A stretch of DNA of 64,000 nt from the NCBI GenBank assembly GCA_017519415.1, contig JAFWSI010000012.1, positions 1-64,000 on the forward strand, in the 5' to 3' direction. The notes beneath the pieces were generated by a model. It was not told the DNA's origin, searched no databases, and saw only the letters and a list, made by a program, of their open reading frames with translations. Shown in pieces: positions 22,685 through 29,876 of the stretch; the first letter of the stretch is position 1, and the number at the start of each line of letters is the position of its first letter. The DNA comes from Ruminococcus sp. (lineage in GTDB: Bacteria; Bacillota; Clostridia; Oscillospirales; Ruminococcaceae). A program made the position numbers and the translations under genes.

Positions 22685-25225
22685 ATGAAGATCGATACAA
22701 AAATACTCTCAGCCCTCACAGCCCTCTCTCTGCTGTTTTCGGCTGCTCCAATATCCGTTCCCGATATATCTGCGGCAGGTCAGAGCCCGTCGTCGTCCGT
22801 TTCCGACGAAGTCGGCCTTGCCGGAAACCTCTACACAATTTCCGACAGCGGAATGGCAGACCATGCGGAGCTGCAATGGGCGACTACCCTGTCTGCTCAG
22901 AGCTACGTGCTGTACCGGTCAACGGACAAAAGCAGCGGCTTTCTCCCCGTATACGAGGGAACAGGTACTTCCTGGCAGGACAATGATATGTCCCCCGGCC
23001 AGACCTACTACTATCAGCTTAAAGTAAAGGATAAGAAAGGAGAGAGCTTTTCTTCCGTGAAGGAACTCACACCATGCGCCCTGCCCTCTGGTCTGAGCAC
23101 ATACGACAACCAGAAAGGCAGCAATCTCGTCTATGAGACAAACGGCTACAAGGTGGGAGATACCTACTACAGCTACTCCCTGAAAAAGCATTCCGGCAAG
23201 GACGATATATATCTTGCAGAAACTACCTCCCGTGACGGAAAATGGTTCTCCAACGAGAGAAACGTTGCTGACAGCTCCCAGAATTCAGCTCTTGCAAGCT
23301 GCAAGATAGAGTCGGTTCATATAGAATACATTCCCGCCAGAAACAAAGTGGTAGTATGGGCTCACTGGGAAAAGCCCAGCGGCTACAGCGACGGAAAGGC
23401 TCTCGTTATAACGGGTACTCCAGGCGGACAGTTCACGGTGCATCATGTTTACAATCCGCTGGATATACAGGTGCGCGATATGGCCATATTCTTTGACGAC
23501 GACGGCACGGGCTATCTTATAGCCGCTGCCAACAAGGAGGGGCAGGGTGCCAACGCCACAATGTACATTTTCCAAATGAACAGTGACTACAGTGATGTTA
23601 CGCGAGTGGTAAAAACTCTCTTCGAGGATCAGTACAGGGAGTTCCCAAACCTTATCAAGAAGGACGGCTATTACTTTCTGTTCACTTCACAGGCGGCAGG
23701 CTGGTATCCCAGCAGCGGAGCCTACAGCGTCACAAGAGATATAGGCGGCACATGGAGCGAACTTCGCAGTATAGGCAATACCTCCACATTCTCATCACAG
23801 TCTGGCTGGATAGTGAATATGCAGGACAGGAACTACCTTATGCACGCCTACCGCTGGCTGAGAGCCTCAGACACCAGCGGGACAACGCTTTGTCCGCTGT
23901 ACTTTGACAAGGGCTTCGCATTCTATAACTACTGCCCGTATTTCAAATACAACACCTCCACGGGAGACCTCTTCCCCGTACAGCAGGGCGAGCTTCTTTC
24001 ACAGGACAGGCCTGCTTCATCATCACTGGCTGCAAAAAGCGGCAATTCCCCCGCGAAGGCTGTGGACGGCTCCTATCAGTCCTCCTTCTCGGCTATCGGA
24101 GATTATAAGAAATGGCCGTTCTATTTGCAGGTCGACCTTGAACAGGTCTGCGACCTTGCCAATATACAGATCTCATGGTATATCTGCAAGGGCTCCGAGG
24201 GCTATTATACATACACCGTCGAGGGCAGCACTGACGGTATCAGCTGGACGCAGTTCCTCGATCACACCAACAAGAGCAGCGAGGCTGTCAGCAAGACCTA
24301 CGGCTTCAACAGCGATATGCTCAAGGGGCGGGCGCGATATGTAAGGCTTAATGTTAAGGGCGCAACACTTCAGAACAATCCCGACAACAACTGGTACAAC
24401 CCGCAAATATATGAAATGAAGATATTCGGTACACCCGTAAGCGCTGCGGAAAAGCCTTCGCCCTATATTGACCTGGACTTTGAAGGCGATACGGGCAACC
24501 TGTATCTCGGCAGCGGAGCTTCCGTAAAACAGGACGCACAGAAGGGCGGAGTCCTTTACCTTGACGGAAGCGACAGCTCATATGCGGAGCTTCCCGCAGG
24601 TATGCTTGACGGCTGCCGCGACTACACCGTAAGTATGGATATAAAGTCAGAGTCCGAGGGAAATTTTTTCACCTTTGCATTGGGGCATAATGATGAGAAA
24701 TATGTATTCTTCCGGGTCGCAAAGGATAGATTCAGATTTGCTGCCACCACCGATTCATGGCATGACGAGACCGTTATAGAGCGTGAAGCGGACGGCTCAC
24801 AGTGGCACAGCTACACCATGGTATTCAGCGGCGCATTAACAAAGCTTTATATAGACGGAGAGTTCGTCACCGAAACTACCGAGACTCACGGTCAGCTTGC
24901 GGATATGGGCTCTGGTACGAGCTGTTATATAGGCAGATCCTACTACGGGGACGACAGCTGCTTCAAGGGCAGCATCGACAACCTGAAGATATACAAATGC
25001 GCTCTCACAGATGCAGAGATAACAGGCAGTTCCTCGCCTCAGCCGGTAAAGGGTGATGTCAACGGCGACGGCAGGCTGAATATTTCGGACCTCGTCGCCA
25101 TGCAGAGCTTCCTCCTCGGAAAGAACAGCCTTGCCGCTCCCATGAACGGCGATTTCTGCAAGGACGGCGTCATAGACGTGTTCGATATGGCGGCAATGAG
25201 ACAGTATATGCTCCGTATGAGCTGA
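22685..25225 (+). CDS. GH43-type glycosidase with FN3, CBM32-like, LamG-like and dockerin modules
   Basis: 846 aa, ATG 22685 after AAAGGAGG. A signal peptide (about 1-31) is followed by a fibronectin-III-like domain (about 45-135), then a five-bladed GH43 propeller (about 145-430). That propeller has VHIEYIPARNKVVVWAHWE, RDMAIFFDDDGTGYLIAA and REFPNLIKKDGYYFLFTS, where Glu319 fits the general acid. The blade-1 Asp base of classical GH43 is not obvious, as in the exo-beta-1,3-galactanase branch. A discoidin/CBM32-like domain (about 440-585), a LamG-like fold (about 600-775) and a dockerin (about 785-846: DVNGDGRLNISDLVAMQSFL then GVIDVFDMAAMRQYML) follow. Probably an exo-acting galactan or arabinogalactan enzyme on the scaffold. 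GH43 is likely; subfamily and substrate are inference. Confidence 0.8.
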   Translation: MKIDTKILSALTALSLLFSAAPISVPDISAAGQSPSSSVSDEVGLAGNLYTISDSGMADHAELQWATTLSAQSYVLYRSTDKSSGFLPVYEGTGTSWQDNDMSPGQTYYYQLKVKDKKGESFSSVKELTPCALPSGLSTYDNQKGSNLVYETNGYKVGDTYYSYSLKKHSGKDDIYLAETTSRDGKWFSNERNVADSSQNSALASCKIESVHIEYIPARNKVVVWAHWEKPSGYSDGKALVITGTPGGQFTVHHVYNPLDIQVRDMAIFFDDDGTGYLIAAANKEGQGANATMYIFQMNSDYSDVTRVVKTLFEDQYREFPNLIKKDGYYFLFTSQAAGWYPSSGAYSVTRDIGGTWSELRSIGNTSTFSSQSGWIVNMQDRNYLMHAYRWLRASDTSGTTLCPLYFDKGFAFYNYCPYFKYNTSTGDLFPVQQGELLSQDRPASSSLAAKSGNSPAKAVDGSYQSSFSAIGDYKKWPFYLQVDLEQVCDLANIQISWYICKGSEGYYTYTVEGSTDGISWTQFLDHTNKSSEAVSKTYGFNSDMLKGRARYVRLNVKGATLQNNPDNNWYNPQIYEMKIFGTPVSAAEKPSPYIDLDFEGDTGNLYLGSGASVKQDAQKGGVLYLDGSDSSYAELPAGMLDGCRDYTVSMDIKSESEGNFFTFALGHNDEKYVFFRVAKDRFRFAATTDSWHDETVIEREADGSQWHSYTMVFSGALTKLYIDGEFVTETTETHGQLADMGSGTSCYIGRSYYGDDSCFKGSIDNLKIYKCALTDAEITGSSSPQPVKGDVNGDGRLNISDLVAMQSFLLGKNSLAAPMNGDFCKDGVIDVFDMAAMRQYMLRMS

Positions 25226-25331
25226 ACTATCAATAAGTTAACAGAACCGTAGTATTAAGTTCACTGACATTCTGTCTTCGTATGATATTCTTTTCCCAAA
25301 GCAATAAATCTTTCAAATAAAGGAGCACAGC

Positions 25332-25784
25332 ATGAACAAGCGTAAAATATCAGACGTTGCCATAATTATCATTTTAGCTTTACCCATTATTTATTTTTTA
25401 TTATGGATACAGGTTAACAAAACTCCCCTTCCCGCTGGGAACGCGGATAAAGTCGTTTTAATGCAAAAAGAATCAAATATTTTCACAGAGCAGGATTTTA
25501 ATGACGCTGTAGAATGTATAAAGAAGTATTTTAAAAAATCATTTACAAACTGCGAACTCAGAGAACTTCGCTATGCAGGCGATGACCTATCACAGAGAGG
25601 TTTGGAACCCGACTCTGATTACGATATTATCTGGTTTTTTTCAAGTTTTTACGTTAAGCGCACTCCTTTCCTTCATCAAAATGACGACTGGCAAGAAGGA
25701 ACAACTCATGATGGTTATCAATTTATTCTTGAACGTAGAAAAGGTACTGATGACTGGACGGTACGAAGTACAGGTTACGGCTGA
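25332..25784 (+). CDS. Unknown membrane-anchored small protein
   Basis: 150 aa, ATG 25332 behind AAAGGAGCACAGC. One N-terminal membrane helix (about 9-28, IIIILALPIIYFLLWIQV) is followed by an extracytoplasmic domain of about 120 residues that is rich in charged and aromatic residues, with no recognised fold. Codon use is visibly AT-richer (TTT, TTA, AAA) than in the flanking glycosidase genes, which hints at separate ancestry. The short C-terminal pattern ERRKGTDDWTVRSTGYG resembles the end of small immunity-type proteins, but that is weak. No function assigned. Confidence 0.6.
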   Translation: MNKRKISDVAIIIILALPIIYFLLWIQVNKTPLPAGNADKVVLMQKESNIFTEQDFNDAVECIKKYFKKSFTNCELRELRYAGDDLSQRGLEPDSDYDIIWFFSSFYVKRTPFLHQNDDWQEGTTHDGYQFILERRKGTDDWTVRSTGYG

Positions 25785-25793
25785 TAAATCCAG

Positions 25794-25820
25794 GCCGCAT
25801 CTCAATAGAGATGCGGCTTG
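25794..25820 (+). terminator. Hairpin after the unknown membrane protein gene
   Basis: GCCGCATCTC / GAGATGCGGC stem with a tight loop; the T-run is weak (TTGATTATAT). Confidence 0.55.
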
Positions 25821-25931
25821 ATTATATCATAACTTTACTATAAATCAGTCCATTTTGCTATAAATATTCAGAGTAAAAAGCTATAATAATGCCATAAGCT
25901 AACAAACGCACTGCCCATAAGGAGAAAAAAC

Positions 25932-27335
25932 ATGAAAAAACTGAAGGCTTTATCGATAGTTTCCGCACTTTCAATGCTCACCTGCACTGTTGGCTGCGGC
26001 GGAAATAATACATCGGGATCGGGAAAGGATCCCGAGACCACGACCGAGGCAGCGACAGAGGCTGTGGAGGTCCCCGAGCTGGACGGCTATTCCCTGCTCT
26101 GGAACGACGAGTTCAGCGGCAGCACTCTCGACGAGAGCAAGTGGAACTATGAACCCCACGAGCCCGGCTGGACAAATGAGGAATTACAGGAATACACCAC
26201 CTCCACCGACAACGTTTTCCTGCGCGACGGTAAGCTGGTCATCAAGGCCATAAAGTCCGACAAGAACGGTAAGGATTACTATACCTCGGGTAAGGTTACA
26301 GGTCAGAACAAGACCGATTTCACCTACGGCAAGGTGGTAGTAAGCGCCAGGGTGCCTGTGGGACAGGGACTGTGGCCTGCTGTATGGATGATGCCCAAGG
26401 ACGAGGGACACTACGGTCAGTGGCCAAAATGCGGCGAGATCGACATAATGGAGGTACTCGGAAATGATGTTTCCACCGCCTACGGCACCCTCCACTTCGG
26501 AGAACCCCACGGCGAGATACAGGGCACATGGGGTCTTAAAGGCCAGACCTATGCCGACAGCTTCCATGAATACTCGGTAGAATGGGAGCCCGGCGAGATA
26601 CGCTGGTACATCGACGGCAACCTCTACAATACCGCAAACGACTGGTTCACAGCCGTTCAGGGCGAGGAGGAGAAGCCCTATCCCGCTCCCTTCGATCAGC
26701 CCTTCTTCGTACAGATGAATCTTGCAGTCGGAGGTACATGGCCCGGCAATCCCGACGCTTCCACCGATTTTGACAAAGCGGAATTTGAGGTTGACTATGT
26801 AAGAGTTTATCAGAAGCCCGCTTACGATACAAATGTAAAGAAGCCCGAAAAGGAGTTCCGTCAGGCTCAGGAGGACGGCAACTTCATATTCAACGGCGAT
26901 TTCTCAGAGGCAGAGGATCTGACCGACGATGTTAACTGGAAGTTCCTGCTCTTCGACGGCGGCGAGGGAGCTGCCGAGATAAGGGACAACATGATCGTCA
27001 TAACCTCTGAAAAGGAAGGTACCAAGGAATACTCAGTACAGCTGGTACAGCCCGATCTTCCAATGATAAAAGGTAAGAAATACCGTGTGACCTTCGACGC
27101 ATACGCAGACGAGGAACGCGATATAGTGGTATGCGTTTCCGCACCCTCAGCAGGCTGGATACGCTATCTGAAGGACACAAAGCTCACTCTCACAACAGAG
27201 AAGCAGAGCTTCACATACGACTTTGAGATGAAGGACAAGGACGACAACAACGGCCGTCTTGAGTTCAATATGGGTAAACGCGGCTCAACTGCCACAGTTT
27301 ACATCAGCAACGTAAGAGTCGAAGAAATAACCTGA
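25932..27335 (+). CDS. GH16 endo-beta-glucanase lipoprotein with C-terminal CBM4/9-like module
   Basis: 467 aa, ATG 25932 after AAGGAG. Lipoprotein signal ends SMLTCTVGC (Cys about 22); a short Thr/Glu linker leads to a GH16 jelly roll (about 50-295). The catalytic motif is GEIDIMEVLG, with nucleophile Glu169, Asp171 and acid/base Glu174. The lack of the extra Met-loop insert is typical of laminarinase/lichenase types. A C-terminal beta-sandwich (about 310-467: NFIFNGDFSEAEDL...) resembles CBM4/9. It hydrolyses beta-1,3- or mixed-linkage glucans at the cell surface. Unlike the other glycosidases here it is lipid-anchored rather than dockerin-bearing. A T-run terminator follows. Confidence 0.9.
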   Translation: MKKLKALSIVSALSMLTCTVGCGGNNTSGSGKDPETTTEAATEAVEVPELDGYSLLWNDEFSGSTLDESKWNYEPHEPGWTNEELQEYTTSTDNVFLRDGKLVIKAIKSDKNGKDYYTSGKVTGQNKTDFTYGKVVVSARVPVGQGLWPAVWMMPKDEGHYGQWPKCGEIDIMEVLGNDVSTAYGTLHFGEPHGEIQGTWGLKGQTYADSFHEYSVEWEPGEIRWYIDGNLYNTANDWFTAVQGEEEKPYPAPFDQPFFVQMNLAVGGTWPGNPDASTDFDKAEFEVDYVRVYQKPAYDTNVKKPEKEFRQAQEDGNFIFNGDFSEAEDLTDDVNWKFLLFDGGEGAAEIRDNMIVITSEKEGTKEYSVQLVQPDLPMIKGKKYRVTFDAYADEERDIVVCVSAPSAGWIRYLKDTKLTLTTEKQSFTYDFEMKDKDDNNGRLEFNMGKRGSTATVYISNVRVEEIT

Positions 27336-27422: not shown

Positions 27423-27451
27423 TTGAAAAAAGGGCATAAAAATGCTATAAT
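27423..27451 (+). promoter_or_regulatory. Promoter entering the structured repeat upstream of the GNAT gene
   Basis: TTGAAA (27423-27428), 17-bp spacer, TATAAT (27446-27451). The -10 box is itself inside the first arm of the structured element. Confidence 0.6.
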
Positions 27452-27540
27452 AATCAAAAGCCCTTGCAGATACGCAGATCACAGATCTGCTCCCTGCAAT
27501 CGGGAAATTATAGCATATCGCTTCGCTTATATGCTATAAT
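27442..27540 (+). repeat. Structured intergenic element, copy 1
   Basis: Nested stems: ATGCTATAAT / ATTATAGCAT (27442-27451, 27507-27516), TTGCAG / CTGCAA (27469-27474 with 27495-27500 by reading) and GCAGATC / GATCTGC with an ACA loop. The internal loops read ATAC and TCC. A further arm ATATGCTATAAT (27529-27540) can instead pair with ATTATAGCATAT (27507-27518), giving two mutually exclusive folds. The same design with compensating base changes occurs at 29761-29850 in inverse orientation. It lies in the 5' region of the GNAT gene. Confidence 0.7.
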
Positions 27541-27634
27541 GGAATGCAGCGCATTCATTACAGATAATCAAAACAAGCGGCTCTGTCTTTACGACAGGGC
27601 ATAAAAAAGTCCCACTGAAAGGTCAGAAGGAACA

Positions 27635-28285
27635 ATGATTATTATTAAGCACTGCGGTACGGTACCGCTGGAAACGGAAAGGCTGAGGCTCAGGCGCTAT
27701 GAAAAAGCCGACGCAGTTCACGCCTACCGCAACTGGACAAACGATCCCGAGGTAACAAAATATCTGCGCTGGAACGCTCACCGCAGTCTCTCCGAAACGG
27801 AAGAGCTGGGCAGCTTCTGGCTCGGGAAATACAAGGATAAGCGCTGGTATCACTGGATCATCGCCTTAAAGGATACCGACGAACCCATAGGTACAATATC
27901 CGCTGCACGTACCGATGACCTGACAGGCACCGTGGAGATTGGCTACTGTATAGGAACTCGCTTCCGCAATACGGGCTATACCACCGAAGCCCTGAGAGAG
28001 GTCATACGCTTCTTTTTCCGTCAGGTGGGAGCAAACCGCATAGAAGCAAGACACGACCTGCGCAATACTGCGTCAGGCCGCGTCATGGAAAAATGCGGTA
28101 TGACCTTCGAGGGAACTCTCCGCAGCGCCGAACTAACCGGTCAGGGGCTCTCGGACGTCTGCGTTTACAGTATCCTCGCAGATGAATTCAACGGTCAGAG
28201 CAGCGGAGCAAACATATTCAGCACCGCTCCCGCCGCTTTTTTGAAAACGGAACGTGAAGCGCAGTCCTCAGAGGTTATCAGCTGA
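27635..28285 (+). CDS. GNAT acetyltransferase (RimJ/RimL-like)
   Basis: 216 aa, ATG 27635 after AGAAGGAAC. GNAT fold about 8-185: start LETERLRLRRYEKADA, motif A region EIGYCIGTRFRNTGYTTEAL (acetyl-CoA pyrophosphate loop R-x-x-G-Y/A) and EARHDLRNTASGRVMEKCGM, typical of RimJ/L-type enzymes acting on protein N-termini or small amines. The last about 30 residues (after ILADEFNG) are not part of the fold and are encoded within the 3' end of the convergent cls gene (91-bp overlap). Substrate is unknown. The leader contains the structured repeat at 27442-27540. Confidence 0.85.
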   Translation: MIIIKHCGTVPLETERLRLRRYEKADAVHAYRNWTNDPEVTKYLRWNAHRSLSETEELGSFWLGKYKDKRWYHWIIALKDTDEPIGTISAARTDDLTGTVEIGYCIGTRFRNTGYTTEALREVIRFFFRQVGANRIEARHDLRNTASGRVMEKCGMTFEGTLRSAELTGQGLSDVCVYSILADEFNGQSSGANIFSTAPAAFLKTEREAQSSEVIS

Positions 28286-29727
28286 GACTTTCTAAGAGTC
28301 CGTCTGAAATCCTTGACTATCTCGCCTATAACGGAGCATTCATACAGTACTGCTCCGCATTCAAAATGGAGATAGAAGCTGCGGTAATCGAAATTGATGG
28401 TCCCCACCACAGCAGTCTTACCGTCTGCAACACAGGTCTTGGCATGGATAAATCCCGGAGTGTACTCATATATCTTCACACCCATTTCAGTAAGTGCGGC
28501 ATAGTTGTTCCACGCTATCATGTGGACATACCACTTATCGGGAATATGGGGAGTGATTATCCTCACGTCCACGCCTTTTTTGGCGGCAAAGCCCAGTGCG
28601 TTGGTCATTTCCTCGTCGAGTATGAGATAGGGAGTGGTTATGCATACGGAGCTGCGGGCATTGTTTATGAGTTCAAGATACACTCTCTTGCCCACAGGCT
28701 CTTCGTCAAGGGGCGAATCGGAAAAGGGCTGCACGAAGCCGTCCGTTGCAAGTATGGACTCAAGTCCGCGGGGCTCTGCGGCAAATTTAAGCAGCTCGCT
28801 GCTTTCCGCCTTTTCCCATAGCTGAAGGAACATGACCGTATAATTCCATACTGCCTGACCCCTTATCATAACTGCGGTGTCCTTCCAGTGTCCGAAGCGC
28901 TCCCTGCGGTTTATATACTCGTCGGCAAGATTGGTACCGCCGTTGAATACGGTATGTCCGTCGATAATAACTATCTTTCGGTGATCGCGGTTGTTCTGCA
29001 CTGAGGAGATCATGGGACGGAAGGGATTGAATACCTTGCATTTCACTCCGTTAGCTTCAAGATTACGGAAGGGCTTTACGGAATTGAACATACCTGTTCC
29101 GATACCGTCATACATAAGACGCACATCTACCCCCGCCTTGGCCTTACGTATGAGGAGCTCCGACATAACGTCGAACATATAGCCTCTGGATATTATAAAG
29201 AATTCGAGGAAGATAAACCGCTCCGCTTTTTCAAGCTCGTCTACGAGCCTTTGGAACTGAAGCTCGCCGAGAGGAAAATACTCCGTAATGGAATTCCTGT
29301 AAACGGGATAAAGGCCGTACCCTGAAACATATCTTGCCAGATTCAGAGAATCGGGACAGCTCATTTCGAGCTCCTTCATGACCTGCCTGTCCTGCACAAG
29401 GAGCTCCCTGGTCTGCTTCTGGTTCCTCAGGTCTATAGACTTTGGGAATTGCTGCGAGACCTTGATGAAAAGGTAGGAAACTCCTCCCAGCAGAGGAAAG
29501 ATACTTATAATGATTATCCATGTTACACGGTATGAAATAGGCTCGTTCTTGTTGGTAATATATATCGCAAGGATTATATCAAGGACGATGAGTGCGAAAT
29601 AAATAAAGTAGAATCGCTCTCCGAGACTTGCCACCGCAAGCATGAGAAAGGCTATCTGGAGCAGCAGGAGTATGACAAATGCCGCATTTGTACTGAGAAG
29701 ACTGCTGAGCAGCTTTTTGAGCTTCAT
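28195..29727 (-). CDS. cls: Cardiolipin synthase (two-HKD phospholipase D family)
   Basis: 510 aa, ATG 29727 preceded by GGAGGTGGAAC. Two or three N-terminal membrane segments (about 10-85), then two phospholipase-D domains with HRKIVIIDG...NGGTN (about 235) and HAKTCVADG...GTINFD (about 420), the HKD motifs. The end FAPLL is usual for Firmicute Cls. It condenses two phosphatidylglycerols to cardiolipin at the membrane. The 3' end overlaps the convergent GNAT gene. The upstream region carries the second copy of the structured repeat, ending about 34 nt before the start codon. Confidence 0.95.
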   Translation of the reverse strand: MKLKKLLSSLLSTNAAFVILLLLQIAFLMLAVASLGERFYFIYFALIVLDIILAIYITNKNEPISYRVTWIIIISIFPLLGGVSYLFIKVSQQFPKSIDLRNQKQTRELLVQDRQVMKELEMSCPDSLNLARYVSGYGLYPVYRNSITEYFPLGELQFQRLVDELEKAERFIFLEFFIISRGYMFDVMSELLIRKAKAGVDVRLMYDGIGTGMFNSVKPFRNLEANGVKCKVFNPFRPMISSVQNNRDHRKIVIIDGHTVFNGGTNLADEYINRRERFGHWKDTAVMIRGQAVWNYTVMFLQLWEKAESSELLKFAAEPRGLESILATDGFVQPFSDSPLDEEPVGKRVYLELINNARSSVCITTPYLILDEEMTNALGFAAKKGVDVRIITPHIPDKWYVHMIAWNNYAALTEMGVKIYEYTPGFIHAKTCVADGKTAVVGTINFDYRSFYLHFECGAVLYECSVIGEIVKDFRRTLRKSQLITSEDCASRSVFKKAAGAVLNMFAPLL

Positions 29728-29760
29728 GTTCCACCTCCGTTTTCAGGGATAAATACGTTA

Positions 29761-29850
29761 TTAATGTATATAAGCTATTCGTTATGTTATAATCGTCCGG
29801 TTGCGGGGAGCAGAGCTGCGATCTGCGTATCCGCAAGAACATTATAACAT
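29761..29850 (-). repeat. Structured intergenic element, copy 2
   Basis: Read on the minus strand: ATGTTATAAT / ATTATAACAT (29841-29850 as ATTATAACAT on plus, 29784-29793 as ATGTTATAAT), TTGCGG / CCGCAA and GCAGATC / GCTCTGC. The ATAC and TCC internal loops match copy 1. The GCTTATAT tail is also shared. It points towards cls. Confidence 0.7.
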
Positions 29851-29876
29851 ATTTTCTGAAGGAAAGGAAGATTTTT

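Follow-up and report, generated by a model that had tools for sequence, protein, structure and literature searches.

A gene-free repeat of Ruminococcus, probably mobile, that lies at the extended -10 box of host promoters

Two copies of one element around a convergent gene pair

The window, the whole stretch of 64,000 nucleotides of Ruminococcus DNA that was analysed, harbors a convergent pair of genes coding for a GNAT acetyltransferase and a cardiolipin synthase-like protein, each of which is preceded by a copy of a short structured element. The region before copy 1 (22685-27335) codes for two glycosidases, one of family 43 with a dockerin and one of family 16 with a carbohydrate-binding domain, both expected for a cellulosome-bearing Ruminococcus. 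The features of the locus are as follows; T5 and T3 denote the extended -10 motifs at the two ends of the element, and R1 is a covariance model of its core.

27423..27428, + strand: TTGAAA, -35-like hexamer of the promoter entered by copy 1 (from sequence; 17-bp spacer as across the family)
27442-27540, + strand: copy 1 overall (sequence)
27446..27451, + strand: T5 of copy 1, first -10 hexamer TATAAT, on the native side (sequence, family pattern)
27452..27459, + strand: linker remnant AATCAAAA of copy 1 (comparison with full copies)
27460..27505, + strand: hairpin 2 of copy 1, the conserved core (alignment, covariation, folding)
27507..27517, + strand: inverted arm of copy 1, with ATTATAGCATA complementary to TATGCTATAAT (sequence, family comparison)
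27518..27529, + strand: loop of hairpin 3 of copy 1 (sequence)
27530..27540, + strand: T3 of copy 1, TATGCTATAAT, closing the element as its second extended -10 (sequence, family comparison)
27541..27574, + strand: what is left of hairpin 1 and linker of a second unit, after copy 1 (comparison by eye with tandem copies)
27635..28285, + strand: GNAT acetyltransferase gene behind copy 1 (PF13302, E 6e-35)
28195..29727, - strand: cardiolipin synthase-like (PLD) gene, cls, behind copy 2 (PF13091, E 1e-40)
29760..29772, - strand: T3 of copy 2, decayed (TATATACATTAAT; sequence, comparison)
29761-29850, - strand: copy 2 overall (sequence)
29783..29793, - strand: inverted arm ATTATAACATA of copy 2 (sequence, family comparison)
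29795..29840, - strand: hairpin 2 of copy 2, a copy that lacks hairpin 1 (R1 match, folding)
29841..29851, - strand: T5 of copy 2, TATGTTATAAT, where relatives have the -10 box before cls (sequence, comparison)

The description of the pair in an earlier note, made from the sequence alone, agrees with these features as to the places and strands of both copies, and positions 27463-27540 are 79% complementary to 29760-29837 across 78 nt. The common design that it proposed, with a GCAGATC inner stem and an ATAC/TCC internal loop, is seen in the sequence, and so are the paired changes from TTGCAG/CTGCAA to TTGCGG/CCGCAA and from ATGC/GCAT to ATGT/ACAT. The third arm that it saw in copy 1 is the inverted arm, able to pair with T5 or with T3, and the TATAAT boxes noticed in the arms belong to extended -10 motifs, TATGnTATAAT. 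In copy 1, TTGAAA (27423-27428) lies exactly 17 bp ahead of the first TATAAT (27446-27451); at the -35 place of copy 2 there is TTCCTT, not TTG. Comparison with full copies shows that hairpin 1 is absent from copy 1. The predicted fold of copy 1 is better than those of all 200 shuffled sequences (z -5.4). Trimmed to 85 nt like copy 1, copy 2 gives z -1.4, with 14 of 200 shuffles equally good, and its fold is not clearly above shuffles because its 3' arm has decayed.

A dispersed family, its unit and its covariation

The genome that contains the window is an assembly of 75 contigs, 74.9% complete. Nine places in it were matched by copy 1 with blastn, one of them partially. R1 (85 positions, built on 8 seed copies) found eight strong copies there, six besides the window pair, and three weak matches, two of which are the reverse strand of known copies. 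Beyond this genome, R1 matched at least 50 of 100 genus genomes at E 0.01, with a maximum of 21 matches in one genome. At the family level (E 0.001), at least 42 of 297 genomes had a match, representing at least 22 of 126 genera, and at the order level (E 0.0001) at least 18 of 394 genomes, including two further families; all these counts are lower bounds, with 45, 15 and 11 candidates scored per genome at the three levels, respectively. The covariance-model search that had been suggested to look for further copies thus returned many of them, from genus to order and ahead of genes. Both window copies are members of a dispersed family, not a matched pair. The family has the marks of a non-autonomous repeat, being short and gene-free, with many dispersed copies and both filled and empty sites. 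Among the matches listed, a 19-base core pattern occurs mainly in Ruminococcus flavefaciens strains and rumen Ruminococcus assemblies, with a few scattered other names; it is also contained in a viral contig of 123 kb from IMG/VR (L262).

A full unit measures about 110-118 bp, codes for no gene and sometimes occurs in tandem. It is made up of T5 (TATGnTATAAT), hairpin 1, a short AT-rich linker, hairpin 2, the inverted arm, a loop, and T3 (TATGnTATAAT), so ordered. Hairpin 1 has the form GAATGC..GCATTC closed by ATTATA, or a TTCG..CGAA form, and hairpin 2 carries the ATAC/TCC internal loop. The last hairpin has an inverted arm, ATTATAnCATA, that is complementary to the -10 motif and can pair with T5 or T3, and the loop of this hairpin 3 resembles ACGCTTCGCTT. 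The element starts directly 3' of the native TATAAT and ends with a TATAAT of its own. Tandem arrays with at least two units were found in 14 of 67 clusters (13 genomes), with a maximum of four units; their periods are mostly 110-118, with one of 156 in genome G012, and there is one shared TATGnTATAAT per unit. In genome G000, the end of contig C41 (30760-31017) falls within a tandem array of the element. Assemblies probably break at such repeats, so that copy numbers in draft genomes are too low.

Relatives in other genera keep the ends of the unit, with the arm followed by a T3-like motif in 29 of 34 copies examined and a TATAAT no more than 95 nt upstream in 28 of the 34, while their bodies vary. 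Eight hairpin-3 ends lacking the core were found in the fetched loci. Four of them are known copies, either missed by the pattern (L007, L101) or cut by the end of the locus (L155, L034), and L243 and L253 are copies with a shortened core. The complete genome G149, from another genus, has many tandem and dispersed relatives (L368-L377), several of which have no nearby gene and a shortened hairpin 2.

Covariation was assessed in 13 genomes, on the 82 rows that are distinct among 86. Overall, 98.4% of the pair cells are paired (97.8-99.4% across the five helices), and 15 of 30 pairs have changed on both sides; neither value was reached in any of 500 shuffles, and slid controls gave 2-6 doubly changed pairs. 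The covariation of the fold is therefore beyond chance. The earlier note had taken paired changes as the mark of a selected fold, and the conservation of pairing stands; the step to selection is weakened, since in adjacent inverted repeats of DNA template switching can alter both sides in one step (PMC8794818) and rivals RNA selection as the source of covariation. Paired changes in hairpin 3 need not reflect RNA selection, nor, by the same reasoning, need those in hairpin 1, which lies outside the model. Hairpin 2, with its conserved internal loop, is a better candidate. More generally, mutation of the DNA can, like RNA selection, give rise to covariation in adjacent inverted repeats.

Promoter position, neighboring genes, and empty sites

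The position of the element relative to promoter motifs is fixed. In 88 of 124 unique flanks, a TTG stands 17 bp upstream of the first TATAAT; each other spacing between 10 and 25 accounts for 0-5. After similar flanks are collapsed, the count at 17 bp is 70 of 107, again with 0-5 at the other spacings. By this pattern, the element's first TATAAT represents the -10 box of a predicted promoter whose -35 lies in the flanking DNA. A strong preference for true promoters, beyond the motif itself, was considered on a first background of TRTGnTATAAT motifs (99/310 with TTG at 17 bp) and given up: after de-duplication, TTG at 17 bp is found in 70/107 element flanks and in 96/189 background motifs (p 0.015), a small preference.

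That each window copy precedes a gene holds, and many further copies also lie ahead of genes. In 62 of 66 clusters (61 by a simple gene caller, plus the GNAT gene of the window), the element and the downstream gene share a strand; the predicted start of this gene lies a median of 57 bp past the end of the R1 match (61 genes). The gene upstream shares the strand in 30 cases and is on the opposite one in 37. The four clusters with no same-strand gene ahead are L108, L113, L123, and L141; in the first two, a terminator-like stem-loop follows the element. The genes behind the copies are unrelated and include those for a histidine kinase, an oxidoreductase with a TPP domain, a family 9 cellulase, UvrA, GNAT, and PLD proteins. 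In the leader of an L105-type gene (L309, genome G044), a degenerate element in reverse orientation was seen by eye some 100 nt past an empty -10 box. Insertions or remnants against the direction of transcription thus also occur.

Empty sites, which had been named as support for mobility, were found at three loci and support the mobility of the element itself. At a second GNAT locus, genome G044 is empty, with a single TATGCTATAAT that constitutes one ordinary -10 box. Genome G046 is identical to it over 68 bases through TATGCTATAAT and then carries a 114-bp insert, which itself ends in TATGCTATAAT and is followed by the same kind of leader as in G044. At the same locus, G087 is filled and G048 empty. 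At the L105 locus, G044 is empty at the corresponding -10 box, and at the L103 locus the site is empty in both G044 and G046, occupied by two units in G087 and by hairpin 1 only in G048. For the L104 locus, no orthologue was found in the other five of the six genomes searched. For copy 1 of the window, no direct empty site was found among relatives, because the sequence that directly precedes GNAT in them is coding-like. The place of copy 2 was compared over 30 fetched cls loci, one row of which (L083) is blank. By eye, eight relatives (L064, L065, L067-L072) have a TATAAT aligned with it, seven without any part of the element and one (L064) with a remnant of hairpin 1. Among these 30 loci, an element at cls itself occurs only in the genome of the window, and G097 has one 626 bp off.

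Comparison of sequences thus establishes the dispersal of the element, its tandem units, its filled and empty sites, its orientation with the gene and the native -35 at 17 bp, as well as the junctions, to the base, at the cleanest site, that of the 114-bp insert. Together these features point to a gene-free, non-autonomous mobile repeat of about 110-118 bp whose probable target is the TATGnTATAAT, or extended -10 box, of host promoters. It would insert directly after TATAAT in the direction of transcription and bring its own TATGnTATAAT at its end. The native -35 and the first -10 would remain a working promoter, the terminal -10 being a spare without a -35. If, as seems likely, the native promoter stays active, the element would become a structured 5' leader, and the neighboring gene would probably gain a folded RNA leader. 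A single cleavage rule, TATAAT|, might serve for insertion, excision, and tandem growth.

Such an element, specific for the core promoter and positioned to the base relative to the 17-bp spacer, would find promoters naturally and keep supplying new 5' leaders across a large group of gut bacteria. Strains with filled and empty sites would be natural experiments on the effect of a structured leader on expression.

Target choice and competing explanations

How the target might be chosen can be approached from the variable base n of the motif, which occurs in T5, in the inverted arm, and in T3. Among 157 clusters, 36 without a parsed T5 or arm were omitted. In the remaining 121, some of which are common to related strains so that counts not given as de-duplicated are not all independent, the arm agrees with T5 at n in 93 (44.2 expected), and T3 agrees with the arm in 118 of 120. 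T5 and the arm differ at n in 28 of the 121, and T3 then sides with the arm in 27, which indicates that T3 usually belongs to the element. Within genomes that have at least two sites (74 sites), arm and T5 agree at n in 58 (40.6 expected; none of 5000 permutations) and at the second position of the motif in 59 (51.4 expected; 5 of 5000 permutations). In a second genus, where two of 30 groups were dropped (L383 continues an array and L413 is cut off), agreement between T5 and the arm amounts to 23 of 28 (11.8 expected), and the type of the loop, which lies outside the arms, predicts the target base (15/2 vs. 2/9, p 0.0004). This last property favors choice by pairing over correction after insertion.

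The variable base of the arm therefore tracks the target base beyond chance, which suggests target choice by pairing. The inverted arm would help to select the target by base pairing with the -10 box, an idea that we rate a little short of even. As a wider and more tentative proposal, this class of element, spread through the order that includes Ruminococcus, may find promoters by pairing, its 11-nt arm reading the extended -10, perhaps as a melted single strand, and the arms of sublineages choosing different -10 variants. If so, promoter-finding insertions would follow transcription, spare the host promoter, and get themselves transcribed. Two relatives, L406 and L407 (genomes G194 and G388), have a different flanking motif, ATTATAGTGAACG.. 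and ..TTTACTATAAT, and are possibly a lineage with another target.

The main rival to arm-assisted insertion after TATAAT is site-specific recombination of a small circle, which would exchange strands with the target within a shared TATGnTATAAT core, leaving one core at each end, the arm being corrected later by template switching so as to match the core next to it. At the L103 site, the TAAAAT of the relatives, i.e., the native motif, is found at the 3' end of the element and, complemented, in its last arm, with TATAAT as T5; this pattern is more in keeping with an exchange of cores or a duplication of the target than with simple insertion after T5. Also in favor of the circle, among 120 sites, the arm and T3 have changed together in 7 and T3 alone in 15, and the arm has never changed alone; template switching can bring about such double changes at once (PMC8794818). 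However, in the second genus the target base can be predicted from the type of loop, a part outside the core, and later correction does not account for this; T3 also goes with the arm in 27 of the 28 sites where T5 and the arm differ at n. We consider the small circle possible but doubtful. The 11-bp TATGnTATAAT stands at both ends, as in a target-site duplication, but a plain duplication seems insufficient, T3 going with the arm and not with T5 in 27 of those 28 sites.

The benefit of the element might instead reside in its terminal TATGnTATAAT, T3 serving as a mobile promoter for the downstream gene. T3 is indeed an extended -10 close to the start codon, given the median of 57 bp from the end of the R1 match. 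Nevertheless, no TTG was found 17 bp ahead of T3 in the listed rows, and its hexamer is intact in 97 of 120 sites vs. 114 of 120 for T5, a gap that is biased by the search for T5 with fewer mismatches. Empty sites, moreover, have a promoter already, and the native promoter is retained upon insertion. This makes a mobile promoter improbable.

A conserved cis-regulatory RNA, i.e., a riboswitch-like leader through which many genes respond to one signal and whose spread through the genome is secondary, might be proposed on account of the strong covariation, the conserved internal loop of hairpin 2, and the placement ahead of same-strand genes. As detailed above, the paired changes could also be produced by template switching (PMC8794818). 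At the gathering threshold, Rfam returned no family for the window, nor for 20 loci, of which 19 came from other genera and one from the genome of the window; in L086 there was no match at E up to 1. The presence of the element at a given gene is not conserved. Its occurrence at one of the 30 cls loci, the unrelated downstream genes, and the empty sites all argue against the shared 5' regulatory RNA envisaged in the earlier note, and we regard a conserved cis-regulatory RNA as improbable.

That the two window copies are the ends of one 2.4-kb mobile unit with GNAT and cls, as their inverted orientation around the gene pair might suggest, is hardly credible, since single copies elsewhere flank no such unit and the pair is adjacent in relatives free of elements. 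The genes are adjacent and convergent in many relatives, e.g., G087, G044, G048, G046, G081, G071, and G035, with no R1 match at their cls loci. The block thus exists in other genomes without the repeats, contrary to a unit bounded by inverted repeats, and by this comparison the GNAT-cls block is not mobile.

With the promoter-targeted repeat as the preferred reading, the nearest described kinds are bcr1-type repeats, putative mobile promoters, and bacterial MITEs. The bcr1/BCR repeats of the Bacillus cereus group are described as gene-free, 100 to 400 bp long, and present in many dispersed copies with mobile features, their insertion being tied to the short AT-rich motif TTTAT (PMC6542083). 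By that description they share with the Ruminococcus element a gene-free dispersed body and a short AT-rich insertion motif, but the motif of the latter is an extended -10, with a fixed orientation and a -35 at 17 bp. Putative mobile promoters are short repeats assumed to spread as promoters, as cited in PMC8049555; in contrast, the target of the Ruminococcus element keeps its existing promoter, and the element's own -10 lacks a -35. Bacterial MITEs such as Correia/NEMIS, RUP, and ERIC are likewise small, gene-free, mobile, and foldable as RNA, and some lie near promoters (PMC2229807). The Ruminococcus element differs from them in its promoter-box target and its tandem units, and it shows no terminal TA duplication or long terminal inverted repeats. 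REPs are palindromes of 20-40 bp (PMC3733652). A literature search that fell short of most subscription papers returned no described element aimed at the -10 box.

IS200/IS605 elements and REP/REPIN repeats follow a similar logic: their ends form hairpins, and they insert 3' of a short target that an internal guide recognizes by pairing. The Ruminococcus element might perhaps move by a comparable single-strand reaction; the agreement at n speaks for insertion 3' of a guide-paired fixed sequence, and the L103 site speaks against it. Unlike for IS200/IS605, no linked Y1 transposase was found, and the pairing arm is 11 nt long. Movement by an HUH-type enzyme is unlikely. No element was found in any of the 30 fetched Y1_Tnp loci, and no Y1 match at E 0.001 in the high-copy genomes G048 and G087. 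Over 100 genomes, the association between Y1 and the element is weak and uncorrected for kinship (24/50 vs. 13/50, p 0.038). With no linkage in 30 loci and a weak association, a Y1 transposase as the driver is disfavored. Many genomes of the genus have weak, Y1-like matches to PF01797 in open reading frames of about 170-220 aa, a size typical of REP-associated transposases.
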